Source of the DNA: Bolinopsis microptera
Lineage: Eukaryota; Ctenophora; Tentaculata; Lobata; Bolinopsidae
Length of the DNA stretch: 64,000 nucleotides
Assembly (NCBI RefSeq): GCF_026151205.1
Contig: NC_087078.1
Location: forward strand, 15,703,118-15,767,117
Direction: 5' to 3'
The notes below the pieces were generated by a model. It ran no database searches, had not been told where the DNA came from, and saw only the letters and a list, made by a program, of their open reading frames with translations. Below are positions 17,582-51,600 of the stretch, piece after piece. The position numbers and the translations under genes are program-made. The stretch's first letter is position 1. Every line of letters begins with the position of its first letter.

Positions 17582-17801
17582 TTGTATCACGTGGTGACCC
17601 CCACGGTCGCTATACACTATACTGTATCGTCTTCGACGATACAGGGGGAGCCGCGCACTTCGTGCGCGGCGGGTCATACAACGTATGACAATGCAACTTG
17701 TCATACGTTGTATGACCCGCCGCGCACGAAGTGCGCGGCTCCCCTGTATCGTCGAAGACGATACTATAGTGAAGCGACAGTGGGGTCACCACGTGATACA
17801 A
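17582..17801. mobile_element. 220-bp head-to-head dimer of a ~110-bp hairpin element, 8-bp target duplication
   Basis: The element begins TTGTATCACGTGGTGACC and ends GGTCACCACGTGATACAA. It is flanked on both sides by TGATGCAC (17574-17581 and 17802-17809), an 8-bp target duplication of the hAT type. It consists of two inverted units, 17582-17691 and 17698-17801, around TGCAAC. Each unit carries nested GC-rich hairpins: GTATCGTC/GACGATAC, GCCGCGCAC/GTGCGCGGC and GTCATAC/GTATGAC. No transposase is encoded. Confidence 0.85.
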
Positions 17802-17827: not shown

Positions 17828-17872
17828 CATCAAATAATTATCTGCGCGCATCAAATAATTATCTGTTTTAAT
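17828..17872. repeat. 22-bp tandem duplication
   Basis: CGCGCATCAAATAATTATCTG occurs twice in direct tandem just before the 5' region of the CR1-like LINE. It may mark a target duplication or a promoter repeat of that element; neither can be decided here. Confidence 0.6.
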
Positions 17873-17960
17873 ACTTTCAACACTACTATATAACAAATAA
17901 TTTGAGGACCCGAAACCGCTGAGCAGTCTCTATCTTGAACTTGCTCAACCCCATCTCACT

Positions 17961-19237
17961 TTGAGAATGGTGGAATCCGGTCAAACCGATCAACAGCCAG
18001 TGGGGCTGGGTACCTCAAATTATGTCTTTCAGGAAGATAACAAAGGAAATGACAATGAAAGGCATGATTTGGGGTCCCAGATTAAAGACAATCAGACATC
18101 AGCCCCTGCTGCACCTGAATCCTCAGAAGCTGTTGCAGAGAACAGAACCCCTGAGGACTGTGAAGCAGACGTAAGCAGTTTTGTTTCATTTTGTACCAAT
18201 GCTTCAACACCTTTTGATACAATTCTTTTGGCCCATTCAAAAAACTTACGATCTGAAGTAGACAATATCAAACTGAACTTTTGTAGTACTTTGAAAGTAG
18301 AAGTAGACCAATTTGCAACGTTGACCCCTACAATCATCAAAAACTGTTCAACACTTAACAAATATACCCTGGCAGACGGCCTTCTGTCCCTACTTTCTCT
18401 GTCAGAGAAAGTATGTGCAGTAATAGGGGGTAAAAGGTTGTCTATCGGTGACAACCCCATCGATGAAGCAGCAGTTGCTTCTTCCGTAGCTGCTGACTCC
18501 ATTTCTGGAAATGCTACCCTCCATGAATCCCTTCAGGCTATTCAAAATAGCATTCTTAAGAGAGATAAGGTGCACAATGACACTCTCAAATCAATCAGTG
18601 GCCAGCTTAACACCCTGACTCTCTCCATTGATCAGTACATGAAACCATCAGATATGTCAACTCCAGATGTACCACGTAACACTGCATTTCCTTCTTTCCC
18701 AATAGGCCTTCCTAATATCAATATCGAAAAACCAGATCCTAAGATTGACTTACATACAGTGCAAAATCCTATAGACACCTCCATTGGTCACATTGAGTCA
18801 TTCACACCAGATTTTGTTGCCCAAGAACTTTCGGATAAACTCACTGAATACCTTGACACATTCAGTGAACAGTTTGATGCAAACTCAGAAAGAGGACATG
18901 GTGTCATAAGCTTTGGGGATGCATACAACTATCCAGGAGCCAAAGCTGCAAAACCTATATCCAAAAACATCCCTAGCCTGAACCCCTAACTGAACTTGTT
19001 TCGCTCATCCAGGCCAAATTCCCTGAAAGTGTCATTAATCAGTGTTTAGTGAATCGCTACCTTGACGAGAAATCAGAGCTGCCGAAGCATTCGGACAACG
19101 AAGCCTCACTAATGTTTGATAGTAACATCTTCACTATATCACTAGGCAGTATAGTACCTGTGATGTTCTATTCAGTAAAATCGAAGGATCTGAAACCAAA
19201 ACTGTATCAGCTACTGGAAAAAGTCTATATGTTATGA
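17961..19237 (+). CDS. LINE ORF1, Ser/Thr/Asp-rich protein, frameshifted near 18985
   Basis: The first frame (17961-18989, 342 aa) begins MRMVESGQTDQQPVG and is rich in Ser, Thr and acidic residues, with no recognised RNA-binding fold. It stops right after LNP. The minus-one frame continues without a stop from there (ELVSLIQAKFPESVINQ) to 19237, about 82 residues more. The break lies in CTGAACCCCTAAC; one extra C or programmed slippage on the C run would explain it. Its stop codon overlaps the next start as ATGA at 19234. Its role is inferred from position: LINE ORF1 products usually bind the element RNA. Confidence 0.65.
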
Positions 19238-19950
19238 GTAAGCAATCTCAGTCTGTTTGGCAACATCAAATAGATCAATCTCCAACCACACGTGAGAAAA
19301 GATATAGTGTTACATTTCGTTATGTTACATCTAACAACGAAAATGCAACAATAATAATAGGAGACTCCAACACCAGATTCTTGAAATTCGGTAGTGGGAA
19401 AGGACGTTTCGGTCATAGAATGCCAGGGAAAATGGTAGAATGTTTTACTATTGATATGATTAACCCAAGTTTGTGTGAAGGTTACAGAAATATTTTTATT
19501 CATTGTGGAGTAAATGATATTAAGAAACGGAGCTCAAATATCGAGCAGTGTGCCAGTGATCTCAAGGTAAAACTTGATGATATATGTCGTAAATGTCCAT
19601 ACTCCAAGGTTACCGTTTCGCCAGTACTACCCACTAAGTTTGGCTGGTTGAACGAGAAAGCATTATATTTTAACAAACTTATATTTCAATATGTTGACAT
19701 GAACCCAAGGGTGGGAACTCTAGATTTTAATGAATTTGTTGGTGAAGATGGTAAACTAGCTGACCAGTTCGGTCGTTTCAAGGATAAAAGTGATGCCATC
19801 CATCTTGGGTCTACTGGTATCTTTAAGTTGTCTAGGCTAATAGTGGATAAAATACAGCGCAATCCAATAGATGGGCGCCAATTTAGTGATATTGCTAGGA
19901 GTAAAGTTGGGATGTTCAATTCACGTGTTCAAAGAGCTCCGAAACCATGA
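19234..19950 (+). CDS. LINE-encoded SGNH/GDSL-type esterase
   Basis: The 238-aa product shows the SGNH hydrolase blocks in order. IIIGDSNTRFLKFG (about residues 40-55) gives the nucleophile Ser. The Gly is less certain. IFIHCGVNDI (about 86-95) gives the conserved Asn, and DAIHLGSTG (about 188-196) gives the Asp-x-x-His pair. Esterase domains of this kind occur in CR1-like LINEs; the substrate is unknown and lipid or RNP handling has been proposed. The start overlaps the upstream stop (ATGA at 19234) and its stop overlaps the start of the RT ORF (ATGA at 19947). Here it is a separate ORF, not fused to the RT. Confidence 0.8.
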   Translation: MSKQSQSVWQHQIDQSPTTREKRYSVTFRYVTSNNENATIIIGDSNTRFLKFGSGKGRFGHRMPGKMVECFTIDMINPSLCEGYRNIFIHCGVNDIKKRSSNIEQCASDLKVKLDDICRKCPYSKVTVSPVLPTKFGWLNEKALYFNKLIFQYVDMNPRVGTLDFNEFVGEDGKLADQFGRFKDKSDAIHLGSTGIFKLSRLIVDKIQRNPIDGRQFSDIARSKVGMFNSRVQRAPKP

Positions 19951-22900
19951 ATAGAACAAATATATGTGAGAACTGTATCTGCTGCAGCAAACCTATTCGT
20001 GCTGGACACCCATTTATAAATTGCAATAAGTGTGATTGCATCATTCACAAGAGATGTAAAACACAGGAAAACATTGCCACTTTTAGAGAAAAAACTTACT
20101 GCTCAAATTGTATTCAAAATCATGATATAATTCGTTATAATCCATTCTATCAAGCACCTCACTTTTCAAACAACGAACTACTTGACAATGAACCTCACGA
20201 CTATATAGACTCAATAGGTACAATCTCAAAAACTCTTGAGAACTGTCAATCATATTCTACTAAAAACTTCAACAACCTCATAAAGCAGATTCCTCAAACA
20301 ACATCAAAGCGCATATTCTCACACTACTTTCGAAATATTGATGGAAATGGTACTAACTTTGACAAATTGGCCTTAGAATTAGCCTGCATAGACCACAAAT
20401 TTTCTGTGATAGGTTTAGCAGAAACAAACATTGATCCCTGTAATAGTCAGCTGTACCAAATTAAAGACTATACTTCATGTTACCAAAAACGCTTCGTTTC
20501 TAATAAGACACAACAGGTAAAAAGTAAAGGAAGTGGAGTTTCTCTCTACATTCACAACTCCTTTAACTTTAGTGTGATTGAAAAGTTATCTGTTTGTACA
20601 GAGCAATTTGAGTCCCTATTCGTAACAATAAGTAATGCTCCAGAACCAGTAACAGTTGGAGTTGTATACCGCTCACCAAGCAATCCACTTGCTAACTTCA
20701 ATGCACAGTATAAAGAAGTTCTTACTGCACTGAAAGGACATAAAGCATACATATTAGGGGACTTCAATGTTAACATAACCAATTTATCAGGCCCAGATGA
20801 AGATATATTCGAAGAAGTTATTTATAGTCACGGGTTCACGCCCACAATATCCATTCCCACACACCAAATGCCCCACTGCTCAAAAACGTGCATTGATAAC
20901 ATACACACTAATGACATTCACTCATCAACTATATCTGGAGTAATTCAGGATAGTGCTTCACATCACCAGCCCATTTTCTGCCTTCAAGTAATGAATTCTG
21001 ATACTAGTTCGGAACAGAAAAAATCACCGGAAAAAACAACCATTTATTATAACTATAGTAATGCAAACCTTAATAAGCTCTGTGAAGAAATTGAAAACGA
21101 CATAGATACATTTTACCACAGATGTGACTCTTTTGAATCCTTCATGGATCTGTTTCAAGAAAAGATAGATATATCTTGCAAATTGGCTTCACCAAAAACC
21201 ACCAAACGAAATAATATAACAAATCCATGGATCACAAACGGCCTTATCAACTCTGTGGAGAAAAAAGCCAGACTTTATTTTGAATGGAAAAAAACAAAAA
21301 CATTGTTAATTCCAGATGGGGATCTGGAAAGACATAATGTTTACAAGGACTACTCAAAATATCTTAAAATTGCCATAAAAACTGCCAAAACCAGGTATTA
21401 TGCTGAAAAGTTTGAGAAAAATAGCCATAACTCCAAAAAAACCTGGCAAATAATTAACGAGCTTCGTGGCAAAAAGGAGAATCAGCTAAAAGATGACTTC
21501 ATTATAGATGGAACTAGAGTAATTTGTAGGCGGACAATTGCAAACAAATTCAATAGTTACTTTACATCTTTAGCTAGTAATTTAAATGAGAAGGTTTTGT
21601 CCGAGAACCAACTGTCTATCCAACCAATGCAATCATTTGTTGAGTTTATGTCGAAATCAGTCAACAGTTCAATACATCTAGAAGAAACTCATCCTGAGGA
21701 GATTCTTGAAATAATTCAAGAATTCGTTAACGGAAAAGCCAGTGATATACCAATAGCAGTTATCATGAAACCGGCTCATCTCTTATCCAACATATTAGCA
21801 AATTTGTATAATACATGTATTCAAAAAGGCACGTTCCCATCCATATTCAAAATAGGCAAAGTAACTCCTATCCATAAAAAAGATAATAAAGAAAATATTG
21901 AAAATTATAGACCTGTGTCAATATTGCCAATCTTTGGTAAAATATTTGAAAAAATAATATACAAACGGCTTTATACCTTTTTCACTGCTAATGACATTCT
22001 CAGTAATGAACAATTTGGTTTTCGAAAAGGCCACTCAACCTCACATGCACTCCACAAATCAGTTCATTCAATCACAACATCAACATCCAGTGGTAATCAT
22101 GTTCTAGGAATCTTTATTGACCTAAGCAAAGCTTTTGATACTCTTGACCATGGCATTCTCCTGAGGAAACTGGAAAATTATGGGGTTAGAGGTCTAGCTC
22201 TAGGACTTCTAAAAAGCTATTTATCCGATAGATCACAGTATGTTTCATTTCTCAACACTACATCAGAGACTATGAATGTAAAATATGGAGTTCCCCAAGG
22301 TTCCATACTAGGCCCTCTACTTTTCTTATTATATATGAACGACATAATAAACTGTTACAAAGGCGATGAATGCAAATTTGTGCTCTATGCTGATGACACA
22401 AATATATTTATCACTGGACCGTCCAAAGAAGCAACATACTTGAAGGCCAATAAAGTTCTTGATTTCGTATGCAAATTCATGAGAAGTAATCTCTTACATA
22501 TAAATATGTCTAAATGCTGCTACATACATTTTCTACCTGCATACGAATCTGATGAAACCTGCGCCAGGGTTAGGCCGTATGCCAATGAACATGACAAATC
22601 ACAAGGAATATTTATAAATGGACACAAAATTGTCAAGGTTAGCAACACCAAATTTCTTGGTGTAGTAATTGACGAAAAACTTAGCTGGGGCCCACATATA
22701 GAATATCTAAGAAAAAAAATTAGATCCACTACAGGAGCACTTAACAGGATTAAACATTCAGTTCCAGGGGAACACTACCAAAAAATATACTCTGCATTAT
22801 TGGAATCACATCTTGCTTACGGAATAAGTGTTTGGGGCTCAGCTCTCAAAGACCAACCAAACGATAAGCTGTTCATAACTCAGAAACGTTGTATAAGAAT

Positions 22901-23450
22901 CCTTTTTGGAGACCTAAATGCATACCTCGACAAACATGCCACTTGTGCACGAGCCAGACCTTATACAAAACAGAGGTTAGGAGCTGCTTTTTTCGAAAAA
23001 GAGCACACCAAGCCCATTTTTAATCGACTAAAATTGCTTACTGTTCAAAACTTGTACAAATACCACTGTATATCTGAGATATTTCGAATTATGAAATTTC
23101 GCACTCCATACTCGTTGTATTGTACTATAGACTCATCAAAACGTGATACAAGCAATGTCATAATCCTCCCAAGAAAAACCAACACTTTTCTTTATATAGC
23201 CTCCAAATTGTGGAATAGCATACATAAACGGATTCTAAATGAGAATGGGGAAATCCTCACTACTTCTGTAGCTTTGGTTAAATTACGCTGTAAAAGTATC
23301 ATCCTGGGATCTCAATCCATCAACAATAATAACACCTGGACTTACCACAACTTTCACATCGCCCCTCACTCAATCACAGACCAAACCATTTCATCACTCA
23401 CTCACCAAATTGCCGACCCAATATCTATTGAAGTGGCGAAAATTTTCTAG
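19947..23450 (+). CDS. LINE ORF2: PHD-like finger, APE endonuclease, reverse transcriptase
   Basis: This intact 1167-aa polyprotein drives target-primed reverse transcription. A Cys/His-rich PHD-like finger covers about residues 7-55 (CENCICCSKP, CNKCDCIIHKRC, YCSNC). The APE-type endonuclease follows (about 128-350), with GLAETNID, VGVVYRSPS, LGDFNVN and a SHHQPIF variant of the usual SDH. The RT (about 600-900) has IFIDLSKAFDTLDH (motif A, about 722), GVPQGSILGPLLFLLYMNDI (motif B) and LYADDTNIF (motif C, about 812). TKFLGVVIDEKLSW marks the thumb-side motif, and a long C-terminal region follows. There is no RNase H domain. The start is fixed by the ATGA overlap with the esterase ORF. The SASHH form of the last endonuclease motif could weaken nicking. 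Confidence 0.9.
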   Translation: MNRTNICENCICCSKPIRAGHPFINCNKCDCIIHKRCKTQENIATFREKTYCSNCIQNHDIIRYNPFYQAPHFSNNELLDNEPHDYIDSIGTISKTLENCQSYSTKNFNNLIKQIPQTTSKRIFSHYFRNIDGNGTNFDKLALELACIDHKFSVIGLAETNIDPCNSQLYQIKDYTSCYQKRFVSNKTQQVKSKGSGVSLYIHNSFNFSVIEKLSVCTEQFESLFVTISNAPEPVTVGVVYRSPSNPLANFNAQYKEVLTALKGHKAYILGDFNVNITNLSGPDEDIFEEVIYSHGFTPTISIPTHQMPHCSKTCIDNIHTNDIHSSTISGVIQDSASHHQPIFCLQVMNSDTSSEQKKSPEKTTIYYNYSNANLNKLCEEIENDIDTFYHRCDSFESFMDLFQEKIDISCKLASPKTTKRNNITNPWITNGLINSVEKKARLYFEWKKTKTLLIPDGDLERHNVYKDYSKYLKIAIKTAKTRYYAEKFEKNSHNSKKTWQIINELRGKKENQLKDDFIIDGTRVICRRTIANKFNSYFTSLASNLNEKVLSENQLSIQPMQSFVEFMSKSVNSSIHLEETHPEEILEIIQEFVNGKASDIPIAVIMKPAHLLSNILANLYNTCIQKGTFPSIFKIGKVTPIHKKDNKENIENYRPVSILPIFGKIFEKIIYKRLYTFFTANDILSNEQFGFRKGHSTSHALHKSVHSITTSTSSGNHVLGIFIDLSKAFDTLDHGILLRKLENYGVRGLALGLLKSYLSDRSQYVSFLNTTSETMNVKYGVPQGSILGPLLFLLYMNDIINCYKGDECKFVLYADDTNIFITGPSKEATYLKANKVLDFVCKFMRSNLLHINMSKCCYIHFLPAYESDETCARVRPYANEHDKSQGIFINGHKIVKVSNTKFLGVVIDEKLSWGPHIEYLRKKIRSTTGALNRIKHSVPGEHYQKIYSALLESHLAYGISVWGSALKDQPNDKLFITQKRCIRILFGDLNAYLDKHATCARARPYTKQRLGAAFFEKEHTKPIFNRLKLLTVQNLYKYHCISEIFRIMKFRTPYSLYCTIDSSKRDTSNVIILPRKTNTFLYIASKLWNSIHKRILNENGEILTTSVALVKLRCKSIILGSQSINNNNTWTYHNFHIAPHSITDQTISSLTHQIADPISIEVAKIF

Positions 23451-23630
23451 ACAAATGATATTTCGATATTATTGCTGCAGCAGATACAAATACCAACATT
23501 ATTATATTCCCAAACGTTTAAACCTTTAAATTAACTAGGAAAGTCAATCCTCAACTTGACTTTTACTGTTTTAAACAGATATGATGATATTAACTTAATT
23601 TATTATTATTATTATTATTTTTTTTTACAT

Positions 23631-24196
23631 ACTCCTTCTTAGTGTGGTGACTTGGGGTCCATAAATATAACAATACAAGCTGATAAACCAAAAAGAACAA
23701 CTGGGGTAGGTAGGTAGCCCTGGTGGGTGCGTAAACTTTACGGTCTGCTCTCTCCAAGATCAGCCTGCTTCTCCATTTTACCGTGAAGCCTAATTTCTAG
23801 TTTTTATAAAATATACAATGCAAGTGCAGGTTTACTAATCTTAATCTACTTAACAACTCAATAGCCCAAGTCACCATACCCGTAGTATATTCCATGGTAA
23901 TAGAAGAGCTTTAAAGTTTTTCAAATTGTTGCTATAATTGATTTAAATAAAAATTTGTTGTTTTCTTTGTTGTTTTCTTGATTATTCTCGTAATCTCGAA
24001 ACCACATTAGCGAAATGCATCACTGGGTCACTGGGCTACGAGCTCAAAGCTGCGAAGGGTTGATGTCGCATGAATCAACTATTTTGGCTTTCATGTTTCA
24101 CAATTTTGCTCACCCGAAAATTTTTATTGTCACTTGACGGATCACAGGGGGAGCTGAAACCAGGTTTTCGACCAAACGCTGCCATGTGTAGTCAAA
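23631..24196. other. Sequence between LINE and hairpin element
   Basis: No coding frame is supported. The part up to about 23.9 kb could still be LINE 3' UTR if the (TTA)n tract at 23.6 kb is internal. Confidence 0.35.
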
Positions 24197-24318
24197 TTGT
24201 CATACGTTGTATGACCCGCCGCGCACAAAGTGCGCGGCTCCCCCTGGCCCTGTATCGTCGAAGACGATACAGTGTAACGACCGTGAGGGGTCACCGTGGG
24301 GGTCACCACGTGATACAA
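24197..24318. mobile_element. Single copy of the hairpin element, 8-bp target duplication
   Basis: It begins TTGTCATACGTTGTATGAC and ends CACGTGATACAA. It is flanked by TAGTCAAA on both sides (24189-24196 and 24319-24326). It corresponds to one unit of the dimer at 17582-17801, which shows that the single unit can transpose. Confidence 0.8.
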
Positions 24319-25559: not shown

Positions 25560-28500
25560 TACTCGAAGGGCCCTACAATGAGGGTGCAGAAGACACCCTC
25601 ATCCAAAAATTTTGTCATACCCTCGAGAGCTGTAAACGTTATTCCAAACGTGAATTCACAGAAGTAGCTACAAAAATCAGCAGTGGTGATGGGTCCTTCC
25701 TCTCAGCACTGTTCCTCAACATTGATGGCAATGCCAGTAATTTCGATACATTCCAAGTTGAACTCAAACGATTATCTCATCCATTTGATGTTCTTGGACT
25801 TGCTGAAACCAACGTTGGTAGTAGCTTACAAGAATTATACCAGATCCCATCTTACACCAGTTTTTATCAAAATACCCTCCCAGATAAGAAAAAGGGCACT
25901 GGGGTTGCGCTTTATGTCTCAGACAACCTTAACACTGTTGTCCTAGAAAAGTTATCCTACTGTACTGTAAACATTGAATGCTTATTCGCCGAAATCACTG
26001 ATAGCACTGGTGTTGGGGTTGTCTACGGAGTTGTATACCGTCCCCCTAGTGGCTGCCTTGAGGCTTTTTGTGAAATTTTACAAACCATTGCTAAGCAGAT
26101 ATCCGGCAAGCCCTTTCGTTTGCTTGGCGACTTTAACTCAGACCTCTTCAAAGTTTCGTCACACAACCAGTTATTTGAAGACACTATAATTAGTAATGGT
26201 TTGTATCCATCCATCTCAATTGCTACCCACTTCCGGCCTAATTGTAAAAACTCGTGTATAGATAACATCCTAGTTAGTGATATTGATAATGTTTTGCTCT
26301 CTGGTGTACTTCAGGATAGATTAAGTGAACACACGTTCATATTCTCCTTCACCTCAACCCCGGCCCCAAGAAATAAGAACAATGAAAAACATGTCCGCTA
26401 CTACGACTACTCAAGTACCAAGCTTAAAAATTTTGTTTCTGACCTTGAGGTGAAGGTGAATCAGCTGTCCCAATCTTCAGATTTTTGCGAATTTGTCGAT
26501 TGCTTCAAATCCACCCTTGACAAGCACTGTAAATTAGAAGTACCGAAAACGACCAAAAGAACACCAAAGCTTAATCCTTGGATTACAGATGGAATCATCC
26601 TCTCAATTGACAGAAAACATGAGCTTTGTAAAGAATGGTCAGATACAGTAACAAATAAAGATCCATCTGGCAATGTCCTTCTTTATAAGATATTTAGTGA
26701 CTATCGTAGGATGCTTAAGGGTATCATAAAGGCAGCCAAACGCTCCTATTACTGTAACGAAATCTATAAAAACATTGAAAGCAGTAAGAAAACTTGGCAG
26801 ATAATAAATGAGCTTAGGGGCAAAAGAAAGAAAACAACCAAACCACCTTTCATCATCAATAATGAAAGAATCTCGAACAGGAGAGCAATTGCCAATGGTT
26901 TTAATTCCTGGTTCGTATCAATTGCTCCCAAGCTCAATGAAACTATCACAACTGACTTGTCTTCTGGTATTCCAATTCTCCCCATGAAAACATTCCATGA
27001 CTTCCTTAGCCCTAGTAACTCTCGATCTATTATGTTAGAGGACAGCACTCCTGAGGAGGTTCTAAGAATAATCAAAGAATTCGAGAATGGAAAGGCCAGT
27101 GATATTCCCATAACCGTTATTAAAACTTCGTCCCACGTTATTGCACCAATTATCAGTAGATACTTAAACAAGCTTATGTCAAATGGTATATTCCCTGATA
27201 TACTTAAGACTGGCAGAATCACACCTGTCTTCAAAAAAGGTAATCCAGAAGAAATAGAAAACTACCGTCCTATATCCACCTTGTCCATATTTGGCAAAAT
27301 ATTTGAGAAAATCATATATTCTAGGATTTATTCGTTTGTCAGCTCTCAGGGAATAATATCTAAGACTCAGTTTGGTTTCAGGCAATCGCACTCAACCTCC
27401 CATGCAGTAAACTACTCTGTTGACCTCATATCTAAGCACATCAAATTGAAGCACCATGTGTTAGGCATATTCATCGACCTCAGCAAAGCTTTCGATACTA
27501 TAGATCACTCAACATTACTTACCAAACTAGAAAGGTATGGCATCCGTGGCGTGGCAAACGATCTGATCAAGAGCTACCTAACTAATCGATTTCAGTACAC
27601 TGATGTTGTAGGAGAAAAGTCCGACCTACTTCCAATAAAATTTGGGGTTCCCCAGGGGTCAATTCTCGGACCCCTTCTATTCCTACTTTACATAAATGAT
27701 ATCTCTAATAGCTCTAGCTTGGGATCGTTTGTCACCTTTGCGGATGACACCAACATATTTGTTGTTGGTAAAACTGCACAAGAAGCATATGAACGCAGCA
27801 ACGCCCTACTTTCAAACCTTCAAACATACATGCGGGCTAACAAGCTTCACATAAACATGTCAAAATGCTGCTACATTCACTTTAGACCTAAGTCACGTAC
27901 TGAAGCAAACGTTGAAGAAGAATTCATAATGAATATAGACAACTACCCCATCAAAAGAGTAACGTCAGCTAGATTTTTAGGAGTCGTCATTGACGAAAAT
28001 CTAACATGGGAAGAACATATAATAGCCCTAAAACGAAAGCTTAACCATGCCACCTCAACTCTGTGTCGTCTACGCTGCTCCCTCCCAGAATTTCTCCACA
28101 GACAGTTATACTACACTCTTTTTGAATCCCATCTGTCGTACTGCATATCAGCATGGGGTGGGGCAGCTAAAAATCGTATAAGCTCAATATTCACTGCACA
28201 GAAGTGCTGTCTGAGGGTCTTGTTTGGTGATAGAGCAGCCTACCTGGATAAATTCAAAACGTGTGTTCGAACCAGACCATTTACTGACCAGAAACTTGAT
28301 AGTAAATTCTATAAAAAGGAGCACACTAAACCTCTGTTTAAAAACAACGAGATACTCACTGTACAAAATCTTTATACTTACCATAGCTACATAGAATTAT
28401 TCAAGATCATGAAGTTTTCTACTCCTATGTCTATGTACGAAGAGTATTCTCGTTCTTCCAGGAAACCAATGCTTATTATCAATAAACCGGATCCCCCAGA

Positions 28501-28860
28501 CAACCATAACACGAGGTCAACGAAAATATGGAATATAATAACCCCTAACCTTAAAATCTTTGATTGTTCTGTTAGTATTTCTTGCCTGAAATCCAAACTG
28601 AAATCTTCACTACTTTCCAACCAGCATTGTCATGCCGTGTATGACTGGACAAATAAAGACTTTGATATTTGTAACCTTAAATTTTCGTAGGCTCCTGCAG
28701 GGATTCCACCTGACCTCCAAAATTTCATGACCAAATCGACATACTCTGCCAGCGTATTCCTCTGTCAAGTTAAATGTGATGTGTGAGTGAGTAAGTGTAG
28801 TGTAAAGAGATCCTATTTTTATATCCAATTTGAATTCTAATAAAGACCCTAAGCATTATG
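25560..28860 (+). mobile_element. Second CR1-like LINE, 5'-truncated
   Basis: It contains a single open frame for endonuclease and RT, with no ORF1, esterase or PHD finger upstream. A 3' UTR of about 160 bp follows the stop, with AATAAA near 28839. Its protein is clearly related to the LINE at 17.9-23.6 kb, but diverged enough to be a different family. Confidence 0.85.
25565..28690 (+). CDS. LINE ORF2 (APE endonuclease + RT), N-terminus missing
   Basis: The frame is open from about 25565 with no natural start and can be read to the stop at 28688. Endonuclease motifs are VLGLAETNVG, YGVVYRPPSG and LLGDFNSD; the last motif region reads DRLSEHTFIF. RT motifs are IFIDLSKAFDTIDH, GVPQGSILGPLLFLLYINDI, TFADDTNIF and RFLGVVIDENLTW. 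Compared with the other LINE, the N-terminal PHD finger and the first ~120 residues are absent, as expected from 5' truncation during reverse transcription. Motif C is FADD rather than YADD, which is known in active LINEs. No frameshift or stop is seen inside the 1041 codons. Confidence 0.85.
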   Translation, partial: EGPYNEGAEDTLIQKFCHTLESCKRYSKREFTEVATKISSGDGSFLSALFLNIDGNASNFDTFQVELKRLSHPFDVLGLAETNVGSSLQELYQIPSYTSFYQNTLPDKKKGTGVALYVSDNLNTVVLEKLSYCTVNIECLFAEITDSTGVGVVYGVVYRPPSGCLEAFCEILQTIAKQISGKPFRLLGDFNSDLFKVSSHNQLFEDTIISNGLYPSISIATHFRPNCKNSCIDNILVSDIDNVLLSGVLQDRLSEHTFIFSFTSTPAPRNKNNEKHVRYYDYSSTKLKNFVSDLEVKVNQLSQSSDFCEFVDCFKSTLDKHCKLEVPKTTKRTPKLNPWITDGIILSIDRKHELCKEWSDTVTNKDPSGNVLLYKIFSDYRRMLKGIIKAAKRSYYCNEIYKNIESSKKTWQIINELRGKRKKTTKPPFIINNERISNRRAIANGFNSWFVSIAPKLNETITTDLSSGIPILPMKTFHDFLSPSNSRSIMLEDSTPEEVLRIIKEFENGKASDIPITVIKTSSHVIAPIISRYLNKLMSNGIFPDILKTGRITPVFKKGNPEEIENYRPISTLSIFGKIFEKIIYSRIYSFVSSQGIISKTQFGFRQSHSTSHAVNYSVDLISKHIKLKHHVLGIFIDLSKAFDTIDHSTLLTKLERYGIRGVANDLIKSYLTNRFQYTDVVGEKSDLLPIKFGVPQGSILGPLLFLLYINDISNSSSLGSFVTFADDTNIFVVGKTAQEAYERSNALLSNLQTYMRANKLHINMSKCCYIHFRPKSRTEANVEEEFIMNIDNYPIKRVTSARFLGVVIDENLTWEEHIIALKRKLNHATSTLCRLRCSLPEFLHRQLYYTLFESHLSYCISAWGGAAKNRISSIFTAQKCCLRVLFGDRAAYLDKFKTCVRTRPFTDQKLDSKFYKKEHTKPLFKNNEILTVQNLYTYHSYIELFKIMKFSTPMSMYEEYSRSSRKPMLIINKPDPPDNHNTRSTKIWNIITPNLKIFDCSVSISCLKSKLKSSLLSNQHCHAVYDWTNKDFDICNLKFS

Positions 28861-35223: not shown

Positions 35224-35961
35224 AATAAGCACCTTCTCAACCTTGATCCGGCCTTGAAGAAGCTGGTACGTGCGGACAGTGTATTCGTGAGTCATCGAAA
35301 GAATCAAACTATCGGTGGCATGCTTGTACACAATAAGTACCGTGCCAGTGGAACTTTAAACTGTGATAATGAGAGAGAAACAACTGCAAGTCAGATCCAG
35401 GAACCAGACTCCGAAAGTCTAAGGGCGGTTCCCGGGGCTGTCGACCCAGGGTGCCATGCTTGTGGTAAATGCTATGTTTGTAAGCAAAATTTCCTGTCCC
35501 CCTGTTCCAACTTTAGTAGTCACCATTCTAAACAAGTTTTCCCTATAACTAAGTATATATCTTGTCAGAGTTATAACCTCATTTATTTAATGGAGTGTAA
35601 GACTTGTAAACAGTCGTATGTCGGTTATACTACCTCAAATCTCCCTAAGAGATTCTCTAACCATAAGAGTCACATAAAGAAAGGTATAAGAAGTTGTAAA
35701 TTAGTTAACCATTTTTTAGATATTGATCATGATTTAGATTTGAGTACCATAGCCTCCTATAATTCCTCACTTAGTAAGCACCTTTCTGTCATTATAGTAG
35801 ACGCTTTAGTATTTGAGCCTAATATTAGTAAAGCAGACAAAGAAAAGGCTATGGAAGCTACAGAGGGGTTCTACCAGACCCAATTGAAAACCCTTGAACG
35901 GTTTGGGGGTATGAACACCCTTGATAGTAACCATATACTTTTTAAATCTGCCGGAGCTTAG
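35224..35961 (+). pseudogene. C-terminal GIY-YIG endonuclease fragment of a Penelope-like element
   Basis: The frame opens out of the (TA)n run as HLLNLDPALKKLVRADSVF and ends FKSAGA. A Cys cluster (CHACGKCYVC) precedes the GIY-YIG core LIYLMECKTCKQSYVGYTTS, with the catalytic-type Arg in LPKRFSNHKSHIKKG. Penelope-like elements use this domain to nick the target. The N-terminal RT is absent, so the copy cannot move by itself. The remaining frame is uninterrupted. Confidence 0.8.
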
Positions 35962-45600: not shown

Positions 45601-48600
45601 AACCGGCAGTTATTTTCAGTTGCTGCAAGATTCCAGGCCGGTGCGAGTGCGACCACACAAGGTGCAGCGATGTAGTGTGTCCGGCTAAGTACACCAAGAA
45701 ACTACAGTCCGCCGCGGAGAACATGCCTGGAAAGTGCTGTGACATCTTCGAGTGTGTGCCAGGTAAGCTGTGGGGAGGGGATGCACGTGTGCACTTTGAT
45801 TTGTACCATTTGCTCCATGTCTTTGAAATGTGGTGACAAAGTAGTTTGTAACATTCTGATAGTCTGTTAGTGTTAAATGAACACACTACCCACTGTATGA
45901 TTTCGGACCCTACAATTCTCGGCAGTATCGAGATAGCCCGACCACGGTCCGCGGACCACTGTCCGCGGACCACTGTCTGCGGACCACTGTCTTAAAGGCG
46001 ATATGTCTTAAAGGCGATATGTATCGTGATATGTATCGTGATATGTATCGTGATATGTATCGTGATATGTATCGTGATATGGATCGTGATATGTATCCTG
46101 ATATGTATCGTGATATGTATCGTGATATGTATCGTGATATGTATCGTGATATGGATCGTGATATGTATCCTGATATGTATCGTGATATGTATCGTGATAT
46201 GTATCGTGATTTGTATCGTGAATCGAGTTAGTGAGCTTGAAAACGAAAGTTACTATTAATAAACTCAAATTGAATTATTTTTGCATATATTATAATAATA
46301 TAATAAAGTAATAAGGTCTGATTACTGATACGGTTCAACGAAACTAATCTTATTTTCTATCGTGATATGTCCCTAAATATAATGATATTCATTCCAAATT
46401 TATCCAATCCTGCACGAAGTAAGGACTAAGTTAAATTTAATCTATAGAACTAATAAGACTTAGCTGGATTCCAAAGAATCTTACCTCTGAGCCACTAAGT
46501 TCCTTGCTTTTTTAATATTCTAGAATGATTTGCTTGAACAGAATATAATTATTATATTTCCAGCTCTGTATAAAGCTTTATTTTTTCACGTAAAAGATTC
46601 TAAATCAAGAAATACATTATGAATACATATATATTATATAACGCTTGATTGATTTTGGACACGAAGGGAAACACACAAATTTGGCTTGGAAACTTCGTTT
46701 ATTACATCGCTAGAGCCTACAAAAAAGAAATAAATTAGTCAGATAAAATCAATCATAATACTCAGTCAAAGAGATTCAAAAATTTATAAAAAGGTCATGA
46801 TTAGAGAATATCATGAAAGTCGATCAGAAATTGGAATACGATAAAATTGTTTCACTGATAGCGTGGTAGATAAAATTTATAAAGAAAAATGACGCAAAAT
46901 TGGCACAAAATTGTTAAAATTAATTAATTACAGATATTGGTAAAAACCACAAAAAAACTACCTTTTAATTTCCATCCTATTTAAACCCCAAACATTAGTT
47001 CTAAACTTTGCACAAAATCTAGCCTCTTCCCTATCTAATAGGGAAGGTTTAGTCTTTTTCACAATCCCGAATTTGAAACAGTCAAAACTGAAAGTGTCCT
47101 TGTGTACATCGTAACAATGCATTGATAAGGCTGAGTGCTCGTAGAGGGCACGGTCGTCAATGTTGAACTTGTTCCGGTGCCCATTGAGCCTAATGTGGAA
47201 TGGAGTCAACGTCTGCCCAAAGTAAGTGTCCTCAGATCCCTCAATAGCCCTACACTGCTGGCATTGTGCAACGTAAATAATGTGCTTATCTTTGCACGTG
47301 AGGGATTCGTCTAGATTAAGCTCCATGCCGTTGACCATGATCTTAGAGTCAAGATCGAACAATACCGGGCAAGTCTTGCATCCAGGGGCTGAGCACTTCT
47401 GTGATGTTTTTTGGGGACATTCAGCCTTATTTCCAAGTTGTCGATTCTTCACTACCCTGTTTCCGATTGAAGGATGTTTTCGTGTGGCAAATATCACACG
47501 TATATCTCCACATATCCTCCTGATGTCCGGTCCAAGTTCGTGAATCAACTTCTTCAGCTGAATGTTGTCCGAAGAGTGTTGTACTGAAAAGACTAAGTTA
47601 TCAGCGTTCTCACTCTCCTTAGACCTGTTGGCTCCGTGGGTGTTCTCCAGTACTCTGACAACTGCTCTCGGCTCGATCTCCTCTAACTTAACGCTGTTAT
47701 GTCCGCTTTTAGATAAATCTGCTTTCAGCTCCATTAAGTCTTCTACACAGGTTGAGTCTTGCGAGTTCCTTTCTATGATTCGTATCATCTGGGAAAACGC
47801 CACAGATTCGAATACATGGTGAGGATGAAAGCTATCCGTTCGCAAGTAATTCCTAGCATCTGTCTCCTTTCTGTAGAGTCTATATTGGATCTGGTTGTAA
47901 GTATCCAAGGTTAGAGTGATGTCAAGGAAATTAACAGTTTTACCGATTTGTTGGTCAGCAAATCTGATTCCAAATGGTTCTGCCAGTTTGTTCAGTTGCT
48001 CCACGAATAGATTGAACTGTCGGACTGTTCCTAACCACACCCCAAGTACATCATCAATAAATCTCCTCCAGAGGTCTACCAAACTCCAGTTTTTCATCTT
48101 TCCTTTGATCTGTTTAAACAATAGCCAATGCATCGTCACATCTGCCACTTGTCTTGAGATACAATTTCCCGTCGGGATACCCTCCTTGTTAATGTATCCC
48201 TCTCCCTGATAAGTGACAAAGGACTCCCGGAAAATCAGGTCAGTGAACTCATGCAAAGCCGCTTTTAGCTCTTGTGAGAAGTTGGTATCACTATTGAGGG
48301 CATCCTCAAGAGCAGTAAGCGCTAGTTCAGGCCTGATGCTAGGATATAATGCTGCCACGTCTAGAGTAAAGAGCTGCAAGTTTCTAGAAGCGCCCTTTAG
48401 CGTCTCCTTGTTGTAGCTGTTGATCTGAGAAATAATGTCTGGGGTATCCAAGATGAACTCCTCCTCACAGTATTTTCTGCTGATCTGAGTGACGTACGGG
48501 CTCACAAACTTCTCTAAACGATAAAGGGGCCCTCCTTTAGTTGCGTGAACTAATCTGACAGGTGGTATAGTCTTTGCCTCGATTTGTTCTTGAGATAGTT

Positions 48601-51600
48601 TGTGAACCTTGTATAAAGGGTACGCATATGGTATTTCAGGGCGGATTTCAGGTGCGTGGACCATGTTCCCCTTGTCATTTATACCTGTGATTCGCTTCTT
48701 TACCTCCTCAGAGATGATGTTCAGATGATGATGTTTGAGGACTGCTTCCTTCACTTTCAATTGAGTCTGCTCCATTTTCACTCCTACACTTATCTCCAAT
48801 TTTGTAAATTTTGTCTCCTTCTCCAGTTCAGATTTAACTGTATCCATCACGGTCCTATAGTCCAAAAGCAGCGTAGCTCCACCTTTGTCCGCACTCGTGA
48901 CGAATATACTTTGATCCTCTATTGATTTCAAGACCCAGCCCTTTCCTCTCTGTTCGGCATCAGTAAGGTTTGAATGTGGTTCGTCAGGATTTGGGTTTGT
49001 GACGAATCCCGTCAATCTTGTTTTGATTTCATCGAACAGGGGATGACTGTAGTCTTGCGGATGCCTTCTAGACCGTAGTCGCAAATCCTTGTGGATATCT
49101 TCAGTATCACCGGCTGTATCTGTTTGGGTTTGGTGGAAGTATGCTTTCCATTCCATCTTTCGCAGGAACTCTTTAACGTCAAAGAGTAAATCTTCTTTTG
49201 CTACTGGTCTACTCTCAACAAAGTTGAGACCTTTTGCTAAATACATGTACGCGATGTCCGGTACTTCTTGTGAAGAAAGGTTTATAACCAATTTACCCTT
49301 GATGTTCCGTTCCACATGGTTTTTCATCCACTCAACCTTTTTGGCGGCTTTTGATGCACGATATTTCTTTCTTTCCGCTCCTCTTTGGTCAGCATTCCGT
49401 TTCCGTTTGCTGATCCTGTTAGTGTTGGGTTGAGGATGAGAGTTTTGGCGCTCTTGTTTTGCCTTATCAAGATGGAATTTGACTTTCTTGTCCGCATATA
49501 ACGCATTATTTCACCGGATTAGTACATCCATATTTAATATAAGTACAAGTATTAGTATATGATCGACGACGAAGTTTTCTTATTTCCATGTGGTCTTTAC
49601 TACATTTCCAATTATTTGTAATCTCACTTATTTATTAAAGAATAAGTTAACACCATATTAATTAGTGAATACAGGTCTTTGACCATTAGTAGTCACTAGT
49701 CATTGGTTTAAGTAATCACGCCGGCGAACTCTGCACTGGTTGTTGGTATTCAATGTAAGCTTACTGAATTTTTTATTACAAAAATTAATTTATAGCAAGC
49801 TTAGAATTCTTTACTGTATTGTAACAAAGTAATATTAATAATTACTTTAACTTACTATAAATAGTAAGGAATTGCCCGACGTAATCTTACTATATATAAA
49901 GTGAGACGATATATATATATATTTATTTATATATCCGTACCATTTTACTGATACCACGGCATCAACTTTAACACGACTTTCCGCAAAATCCGTAAAAGAT
50001 ATACAGCTAAAACTTTTTTGACTGGTGCAAATGCTTTAATGGCCTTCAAATCAGCATGAAGAAATAAAAAATTGGCTAAGGAATAAGAATTTTAGTGCCC
50101 AAAATTTGGACCCCCAAGTGGTGTAAAAACGCGAATTAAATAGGTAATAATTATTTTAGTCTCTTGAGTATTGACACCACTTTAGAGTTAAACGGGTTCC
50201 TGTTAGTACTATTAGAGTGCGAGACAATTCAAGACTTGCAAAAAATGTTTGTTTAGACTTAATAAATAATATTAACTATAACCCACGCACCGTCCCCAGA
50301 CGAAGGGCCCTCAGATGTATGTGTAGACCCTCAAACCGGTCTCAAATACGACAGTGGTGAGTTCTGGCAGCGCGACCCGTGCACTCCCTGCACATGCTTT
50401 AGTGGCGCGCCACAGTGCTATAACAACCCCTGCCCACGTGCGACCTGCGCTAATCCTGTCAAGATGGAGAATGAGTGCTGCCCCAGATGCCCTGGTATGT
50501 TTTACTGTATTTACTATTTACTGTAATTAAATTTATAATTATCTATAAGATTTATGTAAAATTCTATTGGGGCCCATCGCGGGTTTACAACTCAACAGTA
50601 AACATAACTTCTGTGGTTGCTCTCCACTCACTTTTCAAGCTGATCATTAATCACAACTCTGTGATAATTCATAAACGTGTTACCAGCTGAATTGTAATTT
50701 GTCGATATTAATCAAAGATATTTGTCGGCCCCGAGCTTCAGTTTAGCGTGACTGGTAAAACTAAAGATGTAAAGTTGTGCGTGATTTATTACAAAAGTTC
50801 TGATCGAATCGTTGACAAGCACTTTTAATCTTACCGCTCCAATAAGCTTTTCGACAGTTACAAAAGTCGTAAATGTCAGAAGTAATTTTAGGACCATGTT
50901 TTAAAATCAGTAGCGCAATGATTAACGATTCTTTTCTTTTCAAGTTTTTAAAACTTCTAAATTTACGATGCTTAATTTTTTGCAATCGATATATCGTTAT
51001 ATATATATTGTTTGAAAAATATATTGATTAATAAAAACATGGGTATCATGGATTACCAAAGTAATCTAATTTATTTTCGAACGATTGGACTGGAACGAAA
51101 CTCTGTGTTCAAGACAACATCCAGTAATATGAAATATATATCTAATCGAATCAAATAGGGCCTACAAGACCGCAGACCTAATCACTGTCCCGAATTAGAG
51201 TTATTATCAGGTGGGAATGTTCCACCCTGCTCCTAACGACAGGTCGGATACAAATATTCGCGTTTAAACCTGAGATCCTGAGAATATGAGCTAAATTCAA
51301 AATTATATTTCAACCACAAAGAAGAGGTCTGGTTACAGTGGATACATTGTTGCAGCGTTTGTTTTAGGATTTATAGAAAATAACCAACATATCAACCCTC
51401 CTGCTGGTATACTCACATCTGACAAACACTAAATAGCTCAGTGATGTTTTTAACTACTGAGACAAATTTCATTATCACTATATCATTTAGTAATTACCAT
51501 TCAATTATGATTGTTATTCTGTTAAAACCTTTGGACCCACGTACTCAAGTTTATTTTCTATTCCATGGAATTCTGTAAATGAGATCGAATGAGCATCGGA

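Follow-up and report, generated by a model that had tools for sequence, protein, structure and literature searches.

Introduction

The genome of the ctenophore Bolinopsis microptera harbors a LINE copy that raises the question of how many proteins the element specifies and how its reverse transcriptase comes to be translated. The copy is located within a stretch of 64,000 nucleotides (NC_087078.1, positions 15,703,118 to 15,767,117 of the forward strand) that was analyzed as a whole and is referred to here as the window. The preliminary description of the locus, from which the label CR1-like derives, depicted three successive cistrons, namely ORF1, a stand-alone SGNH esterase and the reverse transcriptase, with ORF1 and the esterase ORF each stopping on an ATGA sequence where the next ORF starts, and read these overlaps as sites of termination-reinitiation. 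Stop-start translational coupling is established for the non-LTR element SART1 of Bombyx in which the two ORFs are linked by UAAUG (PMC5972666, PMC2881922). Overlaps of the AUGA and UAAUG forms, as well as close spacing, are associated with termination-reinitiation (PMC5972666).

Results

Organization of the LINE copy in the window

The LINE in the window belongs to a family, designated family A, in which a 5′ UTR of ~100 nt is followed by ORF1, ORF2 and a 3′ UTR that ends in TTGTTGTTTTCTTGA-type repeats. The features of the copy are collected in Table 1; its 5′ end is placed to within ~7 nt. The putative APE-type endonuclease region of ORF2 matched PF14529 (E = 1.6e-4) and PF03372 (E = 0.004), both under the curated cut-off. 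The finger at the N-terminus of ORF2 matched no Pfam model at cut-off. As Pfam gave weak C1 matches only, a full PHD assignment was dropped, and we take the finger to be PHD-like from its C4HC3 spacing.

Table 1. Features of the LINE copy, in window coordinates.
Feature	Position	Strand	Basis or remark
LINE copy, family A (locus L009)	17866..23982	+	Extent of the match between L009 and L010
ORF1 piece 1, frame 0: N-terminal region, first part of AlkB-like domain, premature TAA	17967..18989	+	Alignment to the uninterrupted ORF1 of L010
AlkB-like 2OG-Fe(II) dioxygenase domain, in three frames in the window	18918..19329	+	aa 318-451 of intact ORF1; PF13532 in L010, L025, L043; PDB ALKBH3/ALKBH2
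5-nt insertion 1 relative to L010, within AlkB-like domain	18976..18980	+	Placement ambiguous by a few nt
ORF1 piece 2, frame 2: middle of AlkB-like domain, including HSD iron motif	18977..19237	+	
ORF1 piece 3, frame 1: C-terminal part of AlkB-like domain and SGNH esterase	19126..19950	+	
5-nt insertion 2 relative to L010, within AlkB-like domain	19148..19152	+	
First ATGA, internal Met codon (M420) of AlkB-like domain	19234..19237	+	
SGNH esterase domain, motifs GDS, GVND, DAIH	19348..19866	+	Approximate boundaries
Second ATGA, true ORF1 stop/ORF2 start overlap	19947..19950	+	
ORF2, 1167 aa, uninterrupted: PHD-like C4HC3 finger, putative endonuclease, reverse transcriptase with YADD	19947..23450	+	
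C4HC3 (PHD-like) Cys/His-rich finger, ORF2 N-terminus	19965..20111	+	Sequence; Cys/His pattern seen in other families too
Reverse transcriptase domain	21870..22670	+	PF00078, E = 5.1e-40, over cut-off

Short repeats rich in palindromes (GCCGCGCAC...GTGCGCGGC and TATCGTC...GACGATA) are located at 17600-17790 and 24195-24310, just beyond both ends of the LINE. Elsewhere in the window are another LINE ORF2 fragment, distinct from the first, that includes a reverse transcriptase (26120-28690, + strand; PF00078, E = 1.7e-36), a 235-aa ORF with a GIY-YIG domain (35254-35961, + strand; E = 1e-7), and a 789-aa ORF (46958-49327, - strand) that matched no Pfam model at E ≤ 0.01 and has a Penelope-like look.

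Sibling copies and the intact ORF1

When the genome was searched in six frames using the esterase ORF as query, at least 150 scored matches among 560 candidates were obtained. Near-identical esterases in several copies resided in open frames of 679 aa, compared to 274 aa in the window. Family A was sampled as 16 copies, comprising the window copy and 15 others. An uninterrupted ORF1 of 657-658 aa that includes the esterase was present in six of the others (L010, L012, L014, L016, L019, L020); ORF2 was open for 1167-1169 aa in four of these six and interrupted in L019 and L020. The L011, L013 and L021 copies are 5′-truncated with ORFs of 433-500 codons that extend through the site of the first ATGA, and L015, L017, L018, L022, L023 and L024 are truncated or broken elsewhere.

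The window copy is closely similar to L010, with two substitutions and two 5-nt insertions over the 1971 nt of ORF1 and 11 mismatches in 6107 aligned columns over the whole element. When 11 other copies were aligned to L010, none showed either insertion (the site of insertion 1 is not covered by L015 and L017; L018, L022 and L024 lie outside the alignment). The two insertions shift the reading frame twice, so that three frames were taken for separate cistrons. The separate appearance of the esterase is an effect of these insertions in this copy, whereas the siblings have the esterase inside one ORF1. The three-cistron layout proposed at the outset, with a stand-alone esterase between ORF1 and the reverse transcriptase, was instead a product of mutation in the window copy. 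The LINE in the window very probably is one mutated copy of a recently active LINE with two ORFs, and ORF1 of family A is a single protein of 657 aa that consists of an N-terminal region, an AlkB-like 2OG-Fe(II) dioxygenase and an SGNH esterase.

Copy-specific insertions of 5-9 nt in young copies were noted both in the window (Table 1) and in L023, L013, L016 and L020. They resemble tandem or near-tandem duplications (GCCTG, AGTAT, CAGTG, TACATG, CTCTTTG, CTTACAAGT).

The ORF1/ORF2 stop-start junction

The second ATGA is present as described, with the TGA of the 238-aa esterase ORF (19234-19950) overlapping the ATG of the reverse transcriptase ORF. The sequence ATGA was found at the ORF1 stop in 15 of the 16 family A copies, the exception being the decayed fragment L024. 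Among 20 junctions from families B and C, 13 were ATGATAG, five were ATGGTAG, and the remaining two (L031, L033) were disrupted at the site or ahead of it. Another 20 junction pieces were inspected, of which all except L045 were informative. The ORFs overlapped as ATGATAG in L046-L048, as ATGGTAA in L049-L055 (in L055 this no longer is read as a stop), and as ATGA in L058, L060 and L064, and were separated by gaps of 5 nt in L061, L062 and L063 and of 13 nt in L056, L057 and L059. The L069 junction is ATGA and that of L068 is a 5-nt gap. When 12 lineages were considered with one representative each, seven had ATGA, two had ATGGTAR and three had gaps of 5-13 nt, and the ORF1 stop was located no more than 13 nt from the ORF2 start in all 12. 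The lineages were hand-picked and are related, with B, B3 and C ~86-89% identical in DNA, and the overlaps in nine of the 12 therefore do not represent nine independent events. The ATGA overlap of the ORF1 stop and the ORF2 start is conserved and real, and is of a kind already known. As the junction is conserved both in family A and in diverged families, the comparison supports coupling of ORF1 and ORF2.

Single-sequence RNA folds upstream and downstream of the junction gave no signal (z from -0.8 to +1.6); on the downstream side, 11 of the 12 lineages had sufficient sequence and gave z values between -0.79 and +1.24. The TURBS-like 18S motif UGGGA was present in four of 12 lineages (A, B, C, I) and, not being conserved, was rejected as a coupling element. 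Thus, with neither a fold signal nor a conserved motif, it is the position of the stop relative to the start that argues for coupling. As in SART1, the ORF1 stop overlaps the ORF2 start, and AUGA is a named form of overlap (PMC5972666). Unlike the UAAUG of SART1, the overlap here mostly is ATGA or ATGGTAR, and whereas SART1 needs a downstream RNA structure (PMC5972666), no fold signal was apparent in the ctenophore LINEs. The junction pattern agrees with termination-reinitiation as in SART1: ORF2 most likely would be made by a ribosome that re-initiates at the overlapping ATG after ending ORF1.

Alternatively, ORF2 may be translated by leaky scanning or internal entry, in which case the overlap would reflect compact coding only. 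The lineages in which the overlap is absent (three of 12), as well as the lack of an RNA structure signal at the junction, fit such a route, but scanning ribosomes would have to pass 39 ATGs in 17967-19950, both start codons counted. We regard this route as unlikely.

Recombination at the junction

The L028 and L030 loci combine ORF1 of family B with ORF2 of family A. When examined in bins of 100 nt, both were 96-100% B-like through ORF1 to its stop. The first bin past the stop, which contains the switch, was 90% A-like, and those that follow were 92-100% A-like to approximately +4000. Read by eye, the alignment places the switch ~13-16 nt downstream of the first nucleotide of the ORF2 ATG. 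The 5′-truncated L029 copy has the same chimeric structure, with an identity of 99.3% to L028 and of 99.1% to L030; L028 and L030 share 99.5% identity, and all three copies have different flanks. Both ORFs are open in L028 and L030 (661 and 1167 aa). The same chimeric junction recurs in L065-L067, giving six examined loci in all. The shared junction, the open ORFs and the different flanks indicate that one recombination event generated a working-looking element which then spread. The chimera retained the stop-start overlap as it spread, which counts in favor of the overall reading of the element. A locus with an esterase of family A and an ORF2 of family B was not found by eye among the matches listed. 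The chimera provides a located crossover for the exchange of whole ORF1s that earlier authors proposed (PMC4120745, PMC3905857).

The AlkB-like domain and the SGNH esterase of ORF1

The PF13532 model (2OG-FeII_Oxy_2, AlkB-type) matched aa 318-448 of the L010 ORF1 with 59.9 bits (E = 4.9e-16), and matched family B (L025) and family C (L043) with 67.2 and 61.2 bits, respectively, against a cut-off of 31.2. The bacterial AlkB equivalog NF011930 (NCBIfam) gave 16 bits against a cut-off of 267, and the domain thus is a relative rather than the bacterial AlkB protein itself. Among solved structures, a profile of the domain from two families matched ALKBH3 best (E = 3.3e-8), with ALKBH2 at 8.5e-7. 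The iron ligands H373, D375 and H430 (HxD...H) and the 2OG motif R442-x5-R448 (RxxxxxR) are present in L010, their roles being assigned by the known motif of the family (PMC9289625). In the window copy, HSD occupies a different frame from the arginines and the second His. The AlkB-like domain of this copy therefore is broken.

Of 36 fetched copies, 29 hold the full set of iron and 2OG motifs in a single frame. The other seven (L009, L017, L018, L022, L024, L042, L044), which include that in the window, would be in keeping with a decaying relic or with a structural role without catalysis. However, dN/dS of the AlkB region (Nei-Gojobori method) was computable for three of six pairs, with values of 0.122, 0.094 and 0.068, and was undefined because of saturation for the other three, and the motifs are kept between families A and B, whose domains are 59% identical. 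A relic or a purely structural domain accordingly is quite improbable.

The sole solved structure matched by the esterase profile at E ≤ 0.05 was 4c1b, the esterase of ZfL2-1 ORF1p (E = 1.4e-4). A search with a single esterase sequence placed the putative PAF-acetylhydrolase 2hsj (E = 0.0073) just ahead of 4c1b (E = 0.0088), and the PF13472 match to the esterase was below cut-off. The GDS, GVN and D..H columns are invariant across the three families. The dN/dS values of the esterase were 0.120, 0.121 and 0.093 in the same three pairs for which AlkB values were computable. The synonymous divergence between the ORF1s of L025 and L043 was ~1.1-1.6 in the N-terminal and AlkB parts and 0.32 in the esterase, and this unevenness suggests that the esterase segment underwent recombination or conversion between families B and C.

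Spread of AlkB-esterase ORFs in the genome

Of the 150 esterase matches listed, 133 start within the first four residues of the query and the other 17 were dropped. Among the matches listed, an AlkB match was in the frame of the esterase at 108 of the 133 loci and, where open frames were at least 440 aa, at 94 of 102; as these counts derive from the matches listed, a missing pair is not evidence of absence. The in-frame AlkB match spans the C-terminal part of the domain only at two of the 108 loci, the window and C6:8439530. A genome search with PF13532 gave at least 151 matches, with host genes presumably included, often in recurrent open frames of 551, 593, 611, 646, 676 and 707 aa. When the 600 nt downstream were sampled for the 551-, 593-, 611- and 646-aa frames, the AlkB frame stayed open in all four cases. 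The PF13472 matches there had E values of 0.008, 1e-4, 6e-5 and 0.22, all below cut-off, and the last of these is at chance level. No esterase was retrieved from the PDB with the sequence of the 611-aa frame as query. Matches to PF13532 also were located within open frames of 2459-3388 aa (C10:16875843, C3:14441692, C12:8338315, C9:15868177, C12:2469580).

Reading frames across the two ATGA sites

Ribosomal frameshifting by -1 before the ORF1 stop would generate an ORF1-ORF2 fusion, leaving the ATGA incidental. In the overlapping lineages, ORF2 occupies the -1 frame, and a stop-free frame crosses the junction in two single copies among the matches listed, L055 (1611 aa) and L074 (845 aa; C7:7365059-7365520). 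However, when each is compared with a close relative, an indel is seen next to or upstream of a start site that is itself unchanged. Relative to L052, L055 carries a 1-nt insertion upstream of the ATGGTAA, which is unaltered, and L074 is short of a few codons immediately ahead of an equally unaltered ATGA, which is retained in its close relative L075. These indels look like copy-specific mutations, and a genuine ORF1-ORF2 fusion family was rejected on this basis. Moreover, in six of 12 lineages the ORF2 frame is open for just 12-18 nt upstream of the ATG, so that a frameshift would have little space in which to occur, gaps separate the ORFs in three of the 12, and a slippery heptamer was not seen by eye in family A. 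Frameshifting consequently is highly improbable.

The first ATGA also is present in the window, but ORF1 does not stop on it as had been described. Instead, the ORF1 frame, with its ATG at 17967, ends at the TAA at 18987-18989, 245 nt upstream. The TGA at 19235-19237 closes a different frame, an open stretch of 86 codons (piece 2 in Table 1; first ATG at 19112) that is out of frame past insertion 2 and terminates on the first ATGA. The same ATGA is present in L002, L005, L006 and L008, the four siblings examined in sense orientation besides the window copy, in which the esterase frame is open upstream through the site and the TGA is in another frame. In a pairwise alignment, a Met of ALKBH3 pairs with the Met encoded at 19234. 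An A follows 34 of the 98 ATGs in 17967-23450, and ATGA by itself therefore is expected by chance and carries no signal.

Three cistrons joined by two ATGA re-initiation sites in family A are barely conceivable: although ATGA is present at both window positions and L018 also has an ATG-started esterase ORF of 238 aa, ORF1 of the window stops at 18987 rather than at 19235, an ORF of at least 433 codons spans the site in nine of the 15 other copies, the site is within the AlkB domain with the third iron ligand and the 2OG arginines downstream, and L018 is a truncated copy as its family match starts 5 nt before the ATG in question. A three-cistron LINE with a stand-alone esterase was ruled out by the sibling copies. 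Thus, the re-initiation role first suggested for both ATGA junctions holds at most for the second, which is conserved and at which comparison supports coupling; the first is an internal Met codon and is refuted as a junction by the carriage of the esterase in frame with ORF1 in other copies, the very observation named at the outset as refuting it.

Discussion

The data are best explained by a damaged copy of a two-ORF LINE with an AlkB-SGNH ORF1, in which ORF2 would be translated by re-initiation at the ATGA and the AlkB-like domain would act in demethylation. We assign a probability of approximately 0.85 to this reading as a whole. The three cistrons that the damaged copy appeared to contain are a warning against inferring translation signals from single genomic copies.

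Esterase ORF1s are assigned to only two vertebrate groups of the superfamily in the available text of one study (PMC4120745), and are recorded also in cnidarian and sponge elements (PMC3905857). As in the Type IV ORF1 of zebrafish ZfL2-1 (4c1b), the SGNH esterase is C-terminal in the ctenophore ORF1 and is followed by ORF2 (PMC3905857, PMC4120745). Unlike the Type IV ORF1, an AlkB-like dioxygenase directly precedes the esterase; the available text of these studies includes no AlkB-like domain among the ORF1 domains described (PMC3905857, PMC4120745). A PHD finger after a stop-start at the beginning of ORF2 is described in one L2 subgroup (PMC4120745). The known elements that share a PHD-like finger at this position have an ORF1 of the transposase-22 type, in contrast to the AlkB-esterase ORF1 here.

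An AlkB domain with m6A activity in vitro has been reported in Ty3/Gypsy elements of Phalaenopsis which, like the ctenophore LINEs, are retrotransposons with an AlkB-type domain that keeps the iron and 2OG motifs (PMC9289625). The Phalaenopsis domain is ALKBH5-like and is encoded by a separate ORF of a plant LTR element (PMC9289625), whereas the ctenophore domain is part of a LINE ORF1, is fused with an esterase and has ALKBH3 and ALKBH2 as its nearest solved relatives. The mention of AlkB in PMC8857917 concerns gene loss in arthropods. Judged by title and abstract, no AlkB-bearing LINE or other non-LTR element was found among the open-access matches listed (Repbase and most subscription journals are outside this set). 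Domain surveys may mention AlkB in retroelements. As far as the open-access matches listed show, the AlkB-SGNH ORF1 is new, which is not a proof of novelty.

More broadly, we suggest tentatively, and at somewhat less than even odds, that a large and still active group of LINEs in this genome may carry its own AlkB-SGNH nucleic-acid demethylase, and that ORF1 and ORF2 may be swapped between families, each as an entire module, at the stop-start junction. The AlkB module most likely would act within the ORF1p-RNA particle where, to judge from its motifs, it would strip methyl groups from the RNA or cDNA of the element. Such groups would otherwise block reverse transcription or flag the element to the host. 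If this is correct, marks on the first-strand cDNA or RNA of the element, such as those on the Watson-Crick face at which reverse transcriptase stalls, are erased by the AlkB-SGNH ORF1, and a LINE-borne eraser counters host methylation or damage. With an AlkB domain in ORF1, a LINE would bring along its own eraser of methylation on nucleic acids, in parallel with the AlkB of the orchid Ty3/Gypsy elements, and this would offer a testable tie between nucleic-acid modification and retrotransposition.
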